DNA of 64,000 bases, taken from Bradyrhizobium sp. ISRA430. Its GTDB lineage: Bacteria > Pseudomonadota > Alphaproteobacteria > Rhizobiales > Xanthobacteraceae. The DNA lies in the NCBI RefSeq assembly GCF_029909975.1, contig NZ_CP094516.1, forward strand, positions 3,286,001 to 3,350,000, in the 5' to 3' direction. This document shows positions 4,491 to 10,336 of the stretch, one piece after another. The translations under genes and the position numbers were made by a program. Under the pieces are notes generated by a model. It did not search any database. It was given only the letters and a program-made list of their open reading frames with translations, and was not told where the DNA came from. How positions within the stretch are numbered: position 1 is the first letter of the stretch; the number at the start of each line of letters is the position of its first letter.

Positions 4491-4556
4491 TTAAGAAAAA
4501 GATCAGGACAACATAAGGGACACATAAGGACTTTGGGCGCGCCGTCGCACTAGCCT
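4491..4556 (+). promoter_or_regulatory. Direct-repeat operator array and promoter of the catalase-like gene
   Basis: Four direct repeats start exactly 11 bp apart at 4492 (TAAGA), 4503 (TCAGG), 4514 (TAAGG) and 4525 (TAAGG). Twenty-two bp after the start of the last repeat is GCACTAGCCT, which can serve as an extended -10 region. The same arrangement, including the 22-bp offset to GCACTAGC, recurs at 8930-8995; about 41 of 66 positions match. An 11-bp repeat period is the signature of OmpR/PhoB-type winged-helix factors binding head to tail and replacing the -35 contact. The natural candidate is the regulator encoded at 5830-8901. Confidence 0.72.
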
Positions 4557-4725
4557 ACAGGCTGAGATTTCGCCGGTAACGCGATGCCTCGCTCACGGCG
4601 CGGCCGGACCACCGGGACTGGCTCTCCGGTTGCCCATGTTGCGCTTACGGGCTTACAATGGAACCTGCCCAGCGGCCGCAAGCGTGCGCAATGGGAAGGC
4701 GACCTTCGGGCTGGAGATCAGCGCC

Positions 4726-5823
4726 ATGTCAGCCGCTCAGTATCTGCGTTATGATCCGTCCGTCGAACAAGTCCGGCCGGACGAAGCGGAAGCCGTCGCT
4801 GCGATCGTTGCCTCGATCAAGCGGACCAGCGACTTCACCAGCAGCAAAGACGGACACCGGACCCGGCAGCAGCACGCTAAAGGCGTCGGCTTTCTCCGGG
4901 GCGAGCTCATCGTCTACGACGATTTGCCGGATCATCTGCGCCAGGGCCTGTTCGAAAAGGCAGGCACCTATCCGATCATCGTCCGCCTCTCCACCGCATT
5001 CAACAAGAGCGATCGCGTTCGTTCACCGAGAGGGTTCGCCATCAAGGTCCTGGGCGTGAGCGGCCCGCGGGCGCTCGATGACGATCACTCGACGAACCAG
5101 GATATCCTGCTCGTCAATCACACCAGCTATTTCGCGGATACCAAGGCCTATCTCGACGGCGCACAGCGCAATTTCGAGCGCAGCCTGATCCTTCCGGATT
5201 TCCTGTTCAGAGCGGGCGGATTCTTCTCGCGTATCGCGGTCGCCTTGGCGGACAAAACGGGCATTCACATCCCGATGCTCTTAAGGGCACTCGGCGATCC
5301 CGGCAACAACATCCTCGGAGAAACCTTTCACACCGAAGGTGCGCTGCGCTTCGGCGACCATGTCGCAAGGCTCCGCGTCGTACCGATGTCGGAATCGCTT
5401 CGCAAGCTCACCGGTCAACCCTGCCACGATGGCGACGATGTCGTGCTCAAATCCGTCGTTTCCTTCTTCAGCGACAATTCGGCCGAGTATGAACTGCGTG
5501 CACAGCTCTGCACCGACCTGAAGCGAACGCCGATCGAGGACGCCTCGATCGATTGGCCGGAGGACGTCTCGCCGCCGCAAGCCCTCGGCAAGATCGCTCT
5601 CCCACGCCAGGCCGCCGACAGTCCCGCGCGTCGCCTCTATGCCGATGAGGTGCTGTCGTTCGATCCGTGGCGATGCTTGGCGGCGCATCGGCCGCTCGGG
5701 TCGATCATGCGGGTGCGCAGGGATGCCTACCGCATGTCCCGCGCGCTTCGACAGCAGCACAACCAAGGCATCGCCAAGCAGCCGCCCGGAGAGCCGCAAC
5801 AGATCGCGGACTTGCCGGATTGA
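4726..5823 (+). CDS. Catalase-like heme-family protein (y4iL type)
   Basis: 365 aa from ATG 4726 (GGAG ten bases upstream); a TTG at 4630 would add an unlikely leader. It belongs to the catalase-related proteins like y4iL of rhizobial plasmids. Catalase landmarks visible: distal His50 in QQHAKGVG, the VRLST plus SPRGFAIK block (residues 86-107), and Asn131 in LLVNHTSYF. The proximal heme-ligand motif R-x-x-x-Y of true catalases is not seen; the matching place reads SFDPWRCLAAHRPLG. It may be a peroxidase or lipid-peroxide enzyme rather than a catalase. The operator array at 4491 lies about 170 bp upstream. It meets the regulator gene tail to tail with only 6 bp between stops. Confidence 0.82.
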   Translation: MSAAQYLRYDPSVEQVRPDEAEAVAAIVASIKRTSDFTSSKDGHRTRQQHAKGVGFLRGELIVYDDLPDHLRQGLFEKAGTYPIIVRLSTAFNKSDRVRSPRGFAIKVLGVSGPRALDDDHSTNQDILLVNHTSYFADTKAYLDGAQRNFERSLILPDFLFRAGGFFSRIAVALADKTGIHIPMLLRALGDPGNNILGETFHTEGALRFGDHVARLRVVPMSESLRKLTGQPCHDGDDVVLKSVVSFFSDNSAEYELRAQLCTDLKRTPIEDASIDWPEDVSPPQALGKIALPRQAADSPARRLYADEVLSFDPWRCLAAHRPLGSIMRVRRDAYRMSRALRQQHNQGIAKQPPGEPQQIADLPD

Positions 5824-5829
5824 GCCCGA

Positions 5830-8800
5830 TCACGTCCGTCCCGTGGTTTTGGTCCCGACGTCCCGGCTGGCGTCGAAAAGCGCCGCCGACAGCAACGGAT
5901 CTCCCGGATCGAGCGACTGGGCCAGCGACGCGATCACCCGGCCGGCGCGGTCTTGCCACTTGGCTGCCTTTTGCGCGTGCCCGAGGCTCTCATAGAGCAC
6001 CGCGGACGTGCGGTAGGCGCGCCACGCAGCGTTCGGCAGCCTGCCACGACGGACGATCGAAATCGCCGCCGACAGATGGTCTCTGGCCGTCTGCGTGTCG
6101 TGCTTCAGCAGCGCAATTCTCGCCATCGCGTCGTGAGACAGCACGAGAAACGGCCGGTCGGGCGCAGCGCTCGTCACCGCATGAAGCTGGCTGGCCCAAC
6201 TCTGGGCGCGATCCAGATCGCCGATCGCGATCCAGTAGTCGCAGCAGGTCAAGAGATACTGAGGAATGACCAGCGATTCCATCGGAACGTGGTCTACCTC
6301 CATTCGCCGCTCCAGGGCATCGAGATGCTGCCGCGCCACGGCTAAGTTGCGCATCCTGACGTGGGCGCGCGCGAGCAGGTTCCTGCCGACGAAGAAGGTG
6401 AACGGATTTGCCTCGATCATCGGGCCGAGCGCCTCCTCCCCGCGTCGCGCCGCGCTGCCATATTCCTCGGCCTCGGAATGCAGCCACCCGATCGTGAGCT
6501 GACATAGTGCGATGGCCTGCGGATTTGCATTCCGCTCCGAGATGGTCAATGTAGCGGCGACGCTCCTTTGCATCCGCCCCCATTCGCCGAGATAGATCTG
6601 CGCAAAGGCCTCGACGGATTCATAGAGCGCGAACAGGTAGACGTCGCCGAGCAGCCGCGCGAGCTCCTTCCCCCTGGTCGTCGCTTCGCAGCAGGCCGGG
6701 TAGTTCGATCGCAGGAACTCCAGCACCATCTCCATCGAGCAGCGCCGGAGCCGCATGCTCAGATCCTGCGAGTCCGTGATCAGCCTTGATGCGCGCTCGG
6801 AAAGCTCCGCATTCTCGCGGTCCCAGCCGCGCAGCATCAGCTTCAAATTGGCGAAGTTGCCCTGGACCAGCGCGCCGAACGCGGCGTCGTCAATCGCACG
6901 GCTCTTCGCCAGGGCCTGTTCGGCGAACGGTAGGCTCTGGCGCCGGTCGACGTAAAGACAGAACCTGCTGAGATCGACCAGCGCGTTCACCTCTTCACGC
7001 ACGAGTCCGTTCTCCGCCGCGTGTGCGACCACCGCGCCGAGGTCCTGGAGCGAATTCAGGAAATCGCCACCGGCGCGCCAGGCCCACGCTCGCTGGAGCA
7101 GCAGCTTCAGACGCGTCGCCACCTGAAATTCGGGCGGCAGATGCGGCACCAGCTCCAAGGCCCGAGACAAATAGTTCGCGGCCTCGCGCGTGCTGAACCG
7201 CCGCGCCGAGCCCTCGGCAGCCATTCCCAGATACTGCATCGCCTTGGGGAAATCGCGGCCCAATTCGAAGTGGCGCGCGAGCACGGCAGCGATCTCCCGC
7301 GCCTGCGGCCCATATCCCCGTTCGAGGCCTGCCCCGAGGCTCGCATGGGTTTTGGTGCGGCGCGCGGGCGCAAGCCGCTGATACAGCGTCTCCTGGTAAA
7401 GCGCGTGCTGGAAGGCATAACGCCCGGAGACCTCTCCGTTCGGCCATTCGGTGATGCCATCGACGACGATGATGCGGCCGGCCCGCGCGAGGTCCTCGCA
7501 CATTTGCTCGACCTCCAGCACGGGGCGGTCCAGCACGCCGGAAACCTGGAGCGCTGAAAACTCCGCACCCGCCGCGCTTGCGACCTCGAGCAGACTGCGC
7601 TCCTCCGCCGTGAGGTGATCGATCTGCTGCGTGATCATGCCTTCCAGATCACGCGGCATGCTGTCGTGCAAGGCGGCCTCTTCGCGGACCAGCCGCCATC
7701 CTGCGTCGTCCTCGACGAGCGCACCTTGCGCCACGAGATGATCGACGAGCGACGTTACGAACAACGGCTGTCCGCCGGTCCGCGCGAAAATGCGCTCGAC
7801 AAGGTCCCTGGCAAAATCGGTAGAGTTGAAGCGCAAGGCAAGATAGCGCTCGACGTCGACGCCGGTCAGCCGATCGAGCGCGAGCTCGGCGGCGTGCCCG
7901 TGAATCCGCAAGTCCTGGTGAACGGCACGGACGGGATGCCCGCCGACCGCGACTTCCATGGGCCGATAGGTCGCCAGGACAAGGATCGCCGCCTTCCGAT
8001 CCCGGCGCGCGAGCCGCGAAAGCACGTCGACGGTTGCGAAATCGCTCCAATGCAGGTCTTCGAGAATGATCACCCATGGGCGCACGGCGGCGAGGCTTTC
8101 CATGAGATCGGCGAATTCGCGCAGCATGCGCTCGCGCGTTGCGCCAAAGACTTCGTGCTGGAAGGCGGCGCGATCTGCTTCGCCGAGGAATCCGGGCATC
8201 TGCGCGAGCCAGGTCGGCGCGTGGTCGCGTATGGACGCAAGCAACGACGCACCTTCAGTGCCGCGGCAGCGCTCGTTCAGCGCTTCGATGAGCGGCAGAA
8301 ACGCCTCGTGGGTGCCAAACAGCTCGTTGCAGTTACAATGCAGCACGCCAAGTCCCTGCCGCTCGATCCTGTCGAGCGTCATTTGAACGAGTGTCGTTTT
8401 GCCGATTCCCGCCTCGCCGGTGATGAAGACGACCTGACGCTGCCCGGTCCGCGCGAGTTGCAACGCCTTGTCCAGCGTCTCGAGCGCGGCAGCACGCCCT
8501 ACTCGCCATTGCCGGCGTCGATCGACGATCTGCTCGGCGGCGGAAGCCCCTTCCTCGACCACCTGTTCGACTGCAACCCGCTCGGCGGTCGTGACCGCTG
8601 CAATGAAGCGATAGCCGCGTCGCGTGACCGTCTCGATGTAGTTGGGAGACTGCCTGTCATCGCCGAGCGCCGAGCGCAGCGCGTTCATGGCGACGGCAAG
8701 GCTCGACTCGCTGACGTGCAGGTCGGACCAGACCGAATCGAGCAGCTCTTCCTTGGTGACGAGCTCGCCGGGGCGGCCGACCAGACAGCAAAGAACCTCG

Positions 8801-8901
8801 AACGGCTTCGGCGCCAGCGCGATCCGCTCCCGTCCTCGCCACAATAGCGCGTTCGCCCGATCGAGCCGAAATTCACCAAAGGCAAGCGCGTCCGTACGCA
8901 T
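5830..8901 (-). CDS. Winged-helix transcriptional regulator with ATPase and TPR-like domains
   Basis: 1023 aa. Residues about 6-102 are an OmpR/CadC-type DNA-binding winged helix (FGEFRLD, then LAPKPFEVLCCLV, then TRRGYRFI). Residues about 135-400 are an AAA/STAND-type ATPase with Walker A GEAGIGKT at 162-169 and a hydrophobic WVIILEDLHW Walker B. The C-terminal 500 residues are helical and TPR-like (many Ala/Leu/Arg pairs), likely the signal-sensing part. There is no membrane segment. ATG 8901 is chosen because GGAGGTCGGAG precedes it; the upstream TTG at 8949 lies inside the operator array. Such proteins switch on target genes on ligand binding. The array at 8930 sits 30 bp from its start, suggesting autoregulation as well as control of 4726 and 9106. 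Confidence 0.88.
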   Translation of the reverse strand: MRTDALAFGEFRLDRANALLWRGRERIALAPKPFEVLCCLVGRPGELVTKEELLDSVWSDLHVSESSLAVAMNALRSALGDDRQSPNYIETVTRRGYRFIAAVTTAERVAVEQVVEEGASAAEQIVDRRRQWRVGRAAALETLDKALQLARTGQRQVVFITGEAGIGKTTLVQMTLDRIERQGLGVLHCNCNELFGTHEAFLPLIEALNERCRGTEGASLLASIRDHAPTWLAQMPGFLGEADRAAFQHEVFGATRERMLREFADLMESLAAVRPWVIILEDLHWSDFATVDVLSRLARRDRKAAILVLATYRPMEVAVGGHPVRAVHQDLRIHGHAAELALDRLTGVDVERYLALRFNSTDFARDLVERIFARTGGQPLFVTSLVDHLVAQGALVEDDAGWRLVREEAALHDSMPRDLEGMITQQIDHLTAEERSLLEVASAAGAEFSALQVSGVLDRPVLEVEQMCEDLARAGRIIVVDGITEWPNGEVSGRYAFQHALYQETLYQRLAPARRTKTHASLGAGLERGYGPQAREIAAVLARHFELGRDFPKAMQYLGMAAEGSARRFSTREAANYLSRALELVPHLPPEFQVATRLKLLLQRAWAWRAGGDFLNSLQDLGAVVAHAAENGLVREEVNALVDLSRFCLYVDRRQSLPFAEQALAKSRAIDDAAFGALVQGNFANLKLMLRGWDRENAELSERASRLITDSQDLSMRLRRCSMEMVLEFLRSNYPACCEATTRGKELARLLGDVYLFALYESVEAFAQIYLGEWGRMQRSVAATLTISERNANPQAIALCQLTIGWLHSEAEEYGSAARRGEEALGPMIEANPFTFFVGRNLLARAHVRMRNLAVARQHLDALERRMEVDHVPMESLVIPQYLLTCCDYWIAIGDLDRAQSWASQLHAVTSAAPDRPFLVLSHDAMARIALLKHDTQTARDHLSAAISIVRRGRLPNAAWRAYRTSAVLYESLGHAQKAAKWQDRAGRVIASLAQSLDPGDPLLSAALFDASRDVGTKTTGRT

Positions 8902-8929
8902 CGCTCCGACCTCCGGATGGTCCCCAATC

Positions 8930-8995
8930 TTAAGGGAAAGCTCAGCCAAATGTAAGGACGCGCTAAAGACCTGCTCCCCGCGCTGGCACTAGCAT
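8930..8995 (+). promoter_or_regulatory. Second direct-repeat operator array and promoter
   Basis: Repeats at 8931 (TAAGG), 8942 (TCAGC), 8953 (TAAGG) and 8964 (TAAAG), all 11 bp apart, then GCACTAGCAT at 8986, 22 bp after the last repeat start. It faces rightwards towards the small membrane-protein genes at 9106 and 9282, in the same orientation relative to them as the 4491 array is to the catalase-like gene. It also lies in the start region of the divergent regulator gene. Confidence 0.72.
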
Positions 8996-9105: not shown

Positions 9106-9285
9106 ATGAGCATTTTAAAACGCCAGGCGATTCCGCCTTTCGCATTCGTTATTCGCCATTACGACATCAAGGTCATGGTGGGCGTCGCCATCCTCAGCCG
9201 TATTTTCCTGATTGCGATCTATTTTGCGTCAGTTGGCCCCGGTCTGTCCGAAGCCGACCTCTCAACCGCGATCGCGCTGCCATGA
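9106..9285 (+). CDS. Small single-pass membrane protein
   Basis: 59 aa from ATG 9106 with AAGGAG seven bases upstream, a strong start. The middle (residues about 24-44) is a clear membrane span (VMVGVAILSRIFLIAIYF), with a basic N-terminal side (KR, R, K) suggesting a cytoplasmic N-terminus. I do not recognise the family. It is the first gene after the 8930 operator array and overlaps the next gene by ATGA, so it probably forms a two-gene operon controlled by the winged-helix regulator. Confidence 0.62.
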   Translation: MSILKRQAIPPFAFVIRHYDIKVMVGVAILSRIFLIAIYFASVGPGLSEADLSTAIALP

Positions 9286-9521
9286 GCTCCGGACCCGTGG
9301 AATGGTGCATCGATATTGCGATCATTGCCGCAATCTGCATCGGGATTTTCATGGGCGCGCATGCCCGCTTCACCGCGTCCGATCACGGATTCCGGCGCGC
9401 GCCTTCCGATCGGGCCACCTGCTTTCAGCGGTCCGCGACTAACGCGGACACCGGAGCGCTCCGCAAGGCGGGCACCCTATTTGACCCGGGTGCCTTGCCG
9501 GCGCGGTTCGATCACCAATAG
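9282..9521 (+). CDS. Small membrane-anchored protein
   Basis: 79 aa. The ATG overlaps the stop of the preceding gene (ATGA at 9282-9285), so translation is probably coupled. Residues about 9-26 (CIDIAIIAAICIGIFMGA) form a membrane anchor; the rest is short, basic and likely extracytoplasmic or disordered. No family recognised. Its last 10 bases overlap the tail of the convergent gene at 9512. It may be a partner of the 59-aa protein. Confidence 0.5.
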   Translation: MSSGPVEWCIDIAIIAAICIGIFMGAHARFTASDHGFRRAPSDRATCFQRSATNADTGALRKAGTLFDPGALPARFDHQ

Positions 9522-9952
9522 GCGCGGTAATAGGGACGAGGATAGGCGCGCCAGGGCCGGGCGTAGCCGTAGTAATATGGACGGTAGGGGCGATAGCTGT
9601 AGTAGCGGCGGTAGCCGTAATAGCCGCCATAGGCCGGCGCGTAGCCATAGTAGGCCGGAGCGTAGCCATAATACGGGCCCGGATACCCGTAACCGCCGTA
9701 ATACGGACCGCCATAATAGCCGTAAGGCGCGGTGCTGGCGGCGATGGCGCCGCCGATGATGGCGCCGGCCGCGAGGCCGCCGAGGCCCCATCCCCAGCCG
9801 CCGCGCCAATACACCTGCGTGGTGTCATTGCCGGCCACGGCCTTCATGGCTGCGACATTGGTCGGCATCGGCGCCGCCGATGCCTGCTCCAACTGACCGG
9901 CGATCACCGTGACCGCCAGAGAGCCGGCAATTGCCGTTTTCCAGATACTCAT
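9512..9952 (-). CDS. Tyr/Gly-rich exported protein
   Basis: 146 aa from ATG 9952. Signal peptide at residues 1-26 ending ASA-AP. After a Gly-rich hydrophobic stretch (GLGGLAAGAIIGGAIAAS, which resembles a glycine-zipper) the last 75 residues are dominated by Tyr, Gly, Pro and Arg in imperfect YGY/YRPY repeats. Proteins of this make-up are frequent in Bradyrhizobium and are probably secreted or outer-membrane associated; no function is established. There is no membrane anchor other than the zipper region. Confidence 0.75.
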   Translation of the reverse strand: MSIWKTAIAGSLAVTVIAGQLEQASAAPMPTNVAAMKAVAGNDTTQVYWRGGWGWGLGGLAAGAIIGGAIAASTAPYGYYGGPYYGGYGYPGPYYGYAPAYYGYAPAYGGYYGYRRYYSYRPYRPYYYGYARPWRAYPRPYYRAYW

Positions 9953-10336
9953 CGTCTTAACTCCCTGTTTGACGTTTCGCTTGGAAAAGGATGACCCGCG
10001 ATGATCGGGCATCTTTGCGCTGAGTCAAAGCCTCGATTTCGCGTGCAGCGCACAAGACACCCACACTTGCCTGAATCGTGATCAGGCCTCGCCGCAGACG
10101 TCGCGCCTTTCCGAGCCTCGATCAACACCTCTGTTTCCGCGCGCGGACATGACACGGCTGCAACAGGGGGCCCGCAGCAAGAGGCCAAAGCATTAAGCTT
10201 CCCGCGCGGTCGCAACCAACGACTACCTTTCCGATTTACTATTCGTACCGCTACTATCGGTTCCAATGGCGCCGGGCCGACAGGCTCCTCGCGACAAAAG
10301 GCCTCGGCCCGCGCCAGACGTCAGTGGGAGGATGAC
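9953..10336. other. Divergent intergenic region
   Basis: Separates the Tyr/Gly-rich protein gene (leftwards) and glgC (rightwards), so both promoters should be here. I see no convincing repeat, RNA gene or operator. Local composition is less GC-rich near 10230-10260. Confidence 0.5.

Follow-up and report, generated by a model that had tools for sequence, protein, structure and literature searches.

Introduction

The large SARP AfsR of Streptomyces coelicolor is described as recognizing 11-bp direct repeats that touch a poor −35 element (PMC10936776), and PhoP of Mycobacterium tuberculosis as recognizing 7-bp direct repeats separated by a 4-bp spacer (PMC4832192). Here, we describe two arrays of 11-bp direct repeats that bracket a regulator gene within a 64-kb window of a Bradyrhizobium genome (the window is the whole 64,000-nucleotide stretch that was analyzed). 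A literature search at the level of titles and abstracts turned up neither this locus nor arrays adjacent to regulators of this type. The arrays and the genes around them are as follows.

4491 to 4534, plus strand: array A, four 11-bp direct repeats starting at 4491, 4502, 4513, and 4524, with the core TAAG/TCAG
4726 to 5823, plus strand: catalase-family gene (PF00199), convergent with the regulator gene and predicted to be a target of array A
5830 to 8901, minus strand: regulator gene (Pfam, AlphaFold2 model, Foldseek)
8930 to 8973, plus strand: array B, four 11-bp direct repeats starting at 8930, 8941, 8952, and 8963
9106 to 9285, plus strand: sm1, predicted target of array B; 59 amino acids, among which a single hydrophobic stretch was recognized by eye
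9282 to 9521, plus strand: sm2, a small protein of 79 amino acids whose start overlaps the sm1 stop in the sequence ATGA

Results

Two four-repeat arrays

The repeats read, in order, TTAAGAAAAAG ATCAGGACAAC ATAAGGGACAC ATAAGGACTTT in array A and TTAAGGGAAAG CTCAGCCAAAT GTAAGGACGCG CTAAAGACCTG in array B, and in both arrays a GCACTAGC block lies 22 bp past the start of the last repeat core. From the repeats through this block, 41 of 66 positions are identical between A and B, while the next-best ungapped match on either strand of the window reaches 33/66 for A and 35/66 for B. Among lags 5 to 15, lag 11 gave the most self-matches (23/51 in A and 21/51 in B). The array coordinates, the four-fold exact 11-bp spacing, the position of the block, and the extent of identity had all been given in the preliminary description and proved exact.

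A four-repeat search pattern derived from arrays A and B themselves, with up to two mismatches allowed, matched only A and B in the strain's own 8.56-Mb genome; the reversed control matched four times. When the same genome was searched with a sequence profile, R1, built from 30 arrays of this kind, the two arrays were returned at E = 1.9e-17 and 3.8e-15, with one more match at E = 0.8. The arrays bracketing the regulator gene are the sole strong sites in the 8.56 Mb. Chance as the source of the arrays was set aside on window, genome, and genus controls, and a wider regulon in the strain's own genome was set aside because the pattern and R1 searches gave only A and B as strong sites. The match at E = 0.8 (L264, C1:6580530) is a weak array-like site directly upstream of another winged-helix gene.

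The regulator protein

The protein encoded at 5830 to 8901 is a STAND-type transcription factor. The preliminary description had placed a regulator with an OmpR/PhoB-type winged helix between the two sites, and this was borne out: Pfam Trans_reg_C (PF00486) matches residues 25 to 99 at 66.2 bits, giving an N-terminal OmpR-type winged helix that fits an 11-bp tandem mode of binding. AAA_16 matches residues 134 to 307 at 86.6 bits, a NOD/STAND NTPase, and the P-loop GEAGIGKT (residues 162 to 169) is invariant across 22 aligned proteins. The Pfam scan, at E ≤ 0.001, returned no BTA, receiver, or TPR family, and the protein scored far below the cutoffs of the NCBIfam HilA and CadC models. Domain borders were read off an AlphaFold2 model (mean pLDDT 79, pTM 0.59, with uncertainty in the linker and in parts of the NTPase), which places the winged helix at about residues 1 to 106, the NTPase at about 137 to 345, an arm at about 347 to 497, and a TPR-like superhelix at about 512 to 1013. 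Residues 108 to 138 have a pLDDT under 50, with the NTPase starting right after, and the C-terminal part forms a long superhelix of helical hairpins. The top Foldseek match was the STAND-TPR structure 6mfv (E = 1.7e-9), with poor superposition (TM 0.19 to 0.28); TPR proteins were also listed, and ToxR-DNA winged helices appeared further down.

Conservation in Bradyrhizobium

An ortholog of the regulator, at least 60% identical, is present in 17 of 195 genomes of the genus. A search of related Bradyrhizobium genomes had been proposed in the preliminary description, and in that search the array proved to be conserved ahead of the orthologous genes: when no more than one mismatch is allowed, the array motif occurs in 17/17 ortholog genomes and in 1/178 others (Fisher 1.5e-23, relatedness being ignored). 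Across the genus genomes, the motif totaled 28 sites versus 7 for a control pattern. The lone motif-bearing genome without an ortholog (G170) has its site upstream of another winged-helix regulator gene, divergent from a DUF1127 gene.

The two arrays were followed in 22 genomes, namely, the 17 ortholog genomes plus five picked because profile R1 matched them. Array B is present in all 22 (in G098, the copy has moved off the regulator and left a remnant) and array A in 19; it is absent from G179, G025, and G146 despite the presence of the catalase-like gene there. Conservation peaks at the repeat cores, the GAC of repeat 4, and the −10-like TAGCAT. The gene order of the window, with the catalase-like gene, the convergent regulator gene, sm1-sm2, and then a gene that we take to be glgC, is found in 11 loci.

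Regulators about 43% identical to this one have their own array of four 11-bp units in the same place at 8/8 loci (L075 to L082), with the units TCAAG-ATAAG-TTAAG-TTAAA. Beside the Bradyrhizobium regulators at 46 to 49% identity (five loci, L070 to L074), no site above 8 bits was found, and nothing array-like was seen at L176, L177, and L179, relatives of these regulators. Outside the orthologs, we checked ten matches (8 of the 13 at E = 0.04 to 0.1, plus L264 and L098), of which all except L152 and L156 are near a winged-helix gene; four of these eight belong to the known 43%-identical clade, so the independent count is 4/6.

Neighboring genes

The catalase-like protein matches PF00199 at 29.3 bits against a cutoff of 25, over residues 47 to 111 only, and no NCBIfam model at E ≤ 0.01. 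Of the 195 genus genomes, 22, its own included, contain a match at E ≤ 1e-40. The pairing with a catalase-like gene is not family-wide, since among the loci searched it recurs outside Bradyrhizobium only at Methylocella L173.

The sm1 protein is 56 to 75% identical in 11 of 20 loci searched, and tblastn matches to sm2 were obtained in the same 11. Shorter-range relatives of sm1, partly called by eye, were found in G017, G098, G179, and Bradyrhizobium guangdongense L178, and in more distant loci array B faces other genes, which in G017, G098, and G179 are diverged and sm1-like. In G146, array B faces a gene for a PatA/PatG-family protease (L049:12611-14617; TIGR03895, 625 bits), followed by small Cys-containing open reading frames. 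Small proteins encoded downstream of array B in two genomes (L046:13281-13643 and L048:13319-13735) have a GFPxSPHQ motif in common and no Pfam match. The minus strand of the window at 9515 to 10012 encodes a Tyr/Gly-rich protein of 166 amino acids that has no Pfam or NCBIfam match.

Promoter-like elements

The −35 elements and start sites were read from the sequence, and the promoter-like elements are as follows.

4527 to 4532, plus strand: −35-like AGGACT, within repeat 4 of array A
4551 to 4556, plus strand: −10-like TAGCCT of array A (TAGCAT in most orthologs), 18-bp spacer
8966 to 8971, plus strand: −35-like AAGACC, within repeat 4 of array B (also supported by conservation)
8990 to 8995, plus strand: −10-like TAGCAT of array B, 18-bp spacer (also supported by conservation)
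8951 to 8956, minus strand: candidate regulator −35 CTTACA, inside array B
8927 to 8932, minus strand: candidate regulator −10 TAAGAT, overlapping repeat 1 of array B, at 18-bp spacing from CTTACA

Information content at the GAC columns is higher in repeat 4 than in the three repeats before it, and the T, A, G, C, and final T of the −10-like element are each at least 90% conserved in the alignment of 30 arrays (A2). One-base spacer deletions occur in array A of L039 and array B of L046, with a sigma-70-like distance retained. Each array likely ends in a sigma-70 promoter, that of A leading to the catalase-like gene and that of B to the small-protein operon. We consider it probable that the regulator binds A and B, activates both target promoters, and represses itself at B.

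On the other strand, array B seems to cover the regulator's own promoter. The plus strand at 8951 to 8956 reads TGTAAG in 23/23 B-side rows, whereas A arrays mostly read CATAAG, and base −3, the would-be last T of the reverse −10, is A in 21 of 22 B arrays counted versus 1 of 19 A arrays. The preliminary description had suggested that the regulator might activate itself from array B, which would suit the 29 bp between the start of the array and the regulator start codon. However, the array turns its −35-like edge toward sm1, GAC[TA] was found at the divergent edge only in 25 relatives (see below), and the candidate minus-strand −35 and −10 lie under the array, so that autorepression is to be expected and self-activation appears unlikely.

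A rearrangement in G098 bears on the same site. The remnant, 28 bp from the regulator start, retains the reverse promoter TTTACA-18-TAAGAT and has lost repeat 4; the full four-repeat array, 318 bp away, faces sm1 and has no reverse −10. The two roles look split between the remnant and the moved copy, and we infer that one site would serve both sm1 activation and regulator repression. The moved array keeps AAATGTAAG in the absence of the reverse −10, so the reverse promoter cannot be the sole reason for which these bases are retained. G098 also has a third array (L157, at about 7800; E = 2.4e-5), upstream of a gene for a secreted-looking protein of 134 amino acids.

The arrays touch −35-like elements, where a bound protein could block polymerase, and the regulator might accordingly repress the catalase-like and sm1 promoters, with release by an inducer leading to expression. 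A weak −35 combined with a tandem array nevertheless fits activation in the style described for AfsR (PMC10936776), as does the maintained distance from array to −10, and we regard repression of the two targets as quite improbable.

Distant relatives

To look for an 11-bp period beside distant relatives, named genomes were scanned, which yielded 78 loci from the best 80 of 156 relatives. The 49 loci tested were those in which the match begins at residue 9 or earlier and at least 150 bp lies upstream (29 were excluded); they span several phyla, and of the Bradyrhizobium loci only some were taken, three close orthologs among them. Just upstream of the regulator gene, and in a motif-free analysis, lag 11 was the top of 16 lags in 21.9 of 49 relatives, with a mean score of 13.0 versus 10.1 to 10.8. 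A lag-11 score (S11) of at least 15 was reached in 13 of 49 relatives, compared with 0.07 on average for other lags; 36 of 49 relatives did not reach it. Not every relative has such an array. The test performs poorly on arrays like those of the window (scores of 12, 12, and 10 for the orthologs L163, L169, and L172). At the same threshold, within-locus controls gave 0/45, 1/43, and 0/44, other promoters of these loci gave 2/141, both from L194, and 11 other winged-helix genes of the strain's own genome gave one. A general 11-bp periodicity of intergenic DNA was set aside because the within-locus and other-promoter controls were near zero.

Among the 13 regulators above this threshold, identity does not exceed 67% over about 300 residues. 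Units differ between loci: GTGAG (L202), CAGTAC (L194), CTAAG (L209), CGTGGA/CGTTGA-like (L203, L214, and L227), and GGTAA/GGTTA (L198, L223, and, less clearly, L221). When 20 loci were searched for a second array spelled in the relative's own unit, only weak additional sites emerged, and in 398 genomes of the phylum, searched at E ≤ 1e-90 with two candidates scored per genome, only the strain's own genome and one other Bradyrhizobium genome were recovered. GAC[TA], first spotted by eye in the very arrays tested, lies at the divergent edge of 12/25 arrays and the regulator-side edge of 0/25, against 11.4% of random 24-mers. In several loci, an uncharacterized protein of 60 to 100 amino acids (AFVVQ...GRVEHV.SG....F.S.EELL.F) is encoded divergently from these regulators; seeds came from L204, L226, L238, L199, L194, L203, and L221, 11 further places were found in the loci, and the four members tested had no Pfam match. 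The contigs of the L209 and L223 regulators are titled as a Klebsiella pneumoniae metagenome-assembled genome, a label that looks doubtful.

Across 22 loci, which are not independent draws and in which 4 of 22 segments were set by hand, unit similarity correlated with similarity of the recognition helix (Mantel r = 0.23, permutation p = 0.0015). The correlation was 0.00 for the rest of the winged helix and 0.13 (p = 0.058) for the NTPase, and the partial r for the helix after removing the NTPase was 0.20 (p = 0.0055). With automatic segments at cutoffs of 14, 15, and 16 (N = 25, 19, and 14), r for the helix was 0.23, 0.21, and 0.30 (p = 0.001, 0.009, and 0.006) and, given the NTPase, 0.16, 0.19, and 0.36 (p = 0.025, 0.023, and 0.001); at the loosest cutoff, 14, the NTPase correlated as well (0.175, p = 0.024). 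The repeat unit thus appears modestly to track the recognition helix in distant relatives.

These comparisons also bear on which protein binds the arrays. The strain's own genome holds many other winged-helix genes (the regulator is matched 30 times there, in a fair proportion of cases through its winged helix), and another OmpR-type protein, such as an unlinked response regulator, could be the binder, the neighboring regulator being a bystander or fellow target. Against this, arrays and regulator co-occur genus-wide, and the 43%-identical clade and a share of the distant relatives have arrays at their own genes, with units correlating with the recognition helix; we therefore judge another binder to be very unlikely. 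That arrays A and B are alike merely as a copied promoter, without shared regulation today, seems extremely improbable: they do share 41/66 positions over the repeats and −10, but each keeps its own version, in 19 and 22 genomes, with conservation centered on the repeat cores.

Discussion

We favor a circuit in which the neighboring regulator acts through both arrays. In the resting state, its C-terminal helical part would keep it inactive; an inducer together with ATP would then cause it to multimerize, and the OmpR-type winged helices would line up next to one another along the four 11-bp repeats in each of A and B. Since the last repeat overlaps a weak −35, an occupied array would help sigma-70 RNA polymerase to start the catalase-like gene from A and the sm1-sm2 operon from B. 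At B, the bound protein would also cover the regulator's minus-strand promoter and shut it down, making a local, self-limiting switch. The core of the preliminary description, in which the regulator would act through the two arrays on the catalase-like gene and the small-protein operon, is well supported at the level of sequence comparison by the co-occurrence and conservation of arrays and regulator and by the modest correlation of helix and unit; its further suggestion of self-activation gave way to repression, given where array B lies.

For the family as a whole, the chances seem about even that winged-helix/STAND regulators form self-contained cassettes, each with its own upstream array that provides, at its outer edge, the −35 of a divergent and often very small gene, array and recognition helix changing together. 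If this reading is true, the family would offer a natural series for reading the code that links OmpR-type recognition helices to their repeats; should regulators throughout the family prove to be paired with an adjacent array, operators would become predictable from sequence alone, and the family would be a natural data set for change of winged-helix specificity. At the present locus, a previously uncharacterized STAND regulator gains a predicted operator, a predicted two-promoter regulon, and predicted negative feedback; two DNA probes would suffice to test all three.

Compared with known systems, the regulator has an N-terminal winged helix in common with the ToxR/CadC/HilA type, as judged by sequence matches to the solved ToxR and CadC domains and by the ToxR-DNA fold, but here a STAND-type NTPase and a long helical superhelix follow. 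OmpR/PhoB-type response regulators, such as PhoP as described (PMC4832192), likewise combine a winged helix with tandem sites of 11-bp period, whereas no receiver domain was found here, its place being taken by the NTPase and a helical, sensor-like part. STAND ATPases with a TPR sensor, represented by 6mfv (PMC6468293), are likened to the regulator by the Foldseek search and the P-loop, and they differ in overall superposition and in that a DNA-binding winged helix is fused on here. The regulator may work like AfsR as portrayed in PMC10936776: both have an OmpR-type winged helix and a nucleotide-binding oligomerization domain, AfsR has a TPR domain where the superhelix here is TPR-like, and 11-bp direct repeats lie at the −35 of the target promoter, a −35 that is predicted in our case. 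Since a search for a BTA domain after the winged helix found none, we do not class it with the AfsR-type SARPs. The repeats number four here and two for AfsR, and the afs box is centered at −29.5 (PMC10936776), whereas the array described here has its end at the −35-like element. Finally, AfsR is an actinobacterial antibiotic regulator, unlike the protein described here, whose sites bracket its own gene.
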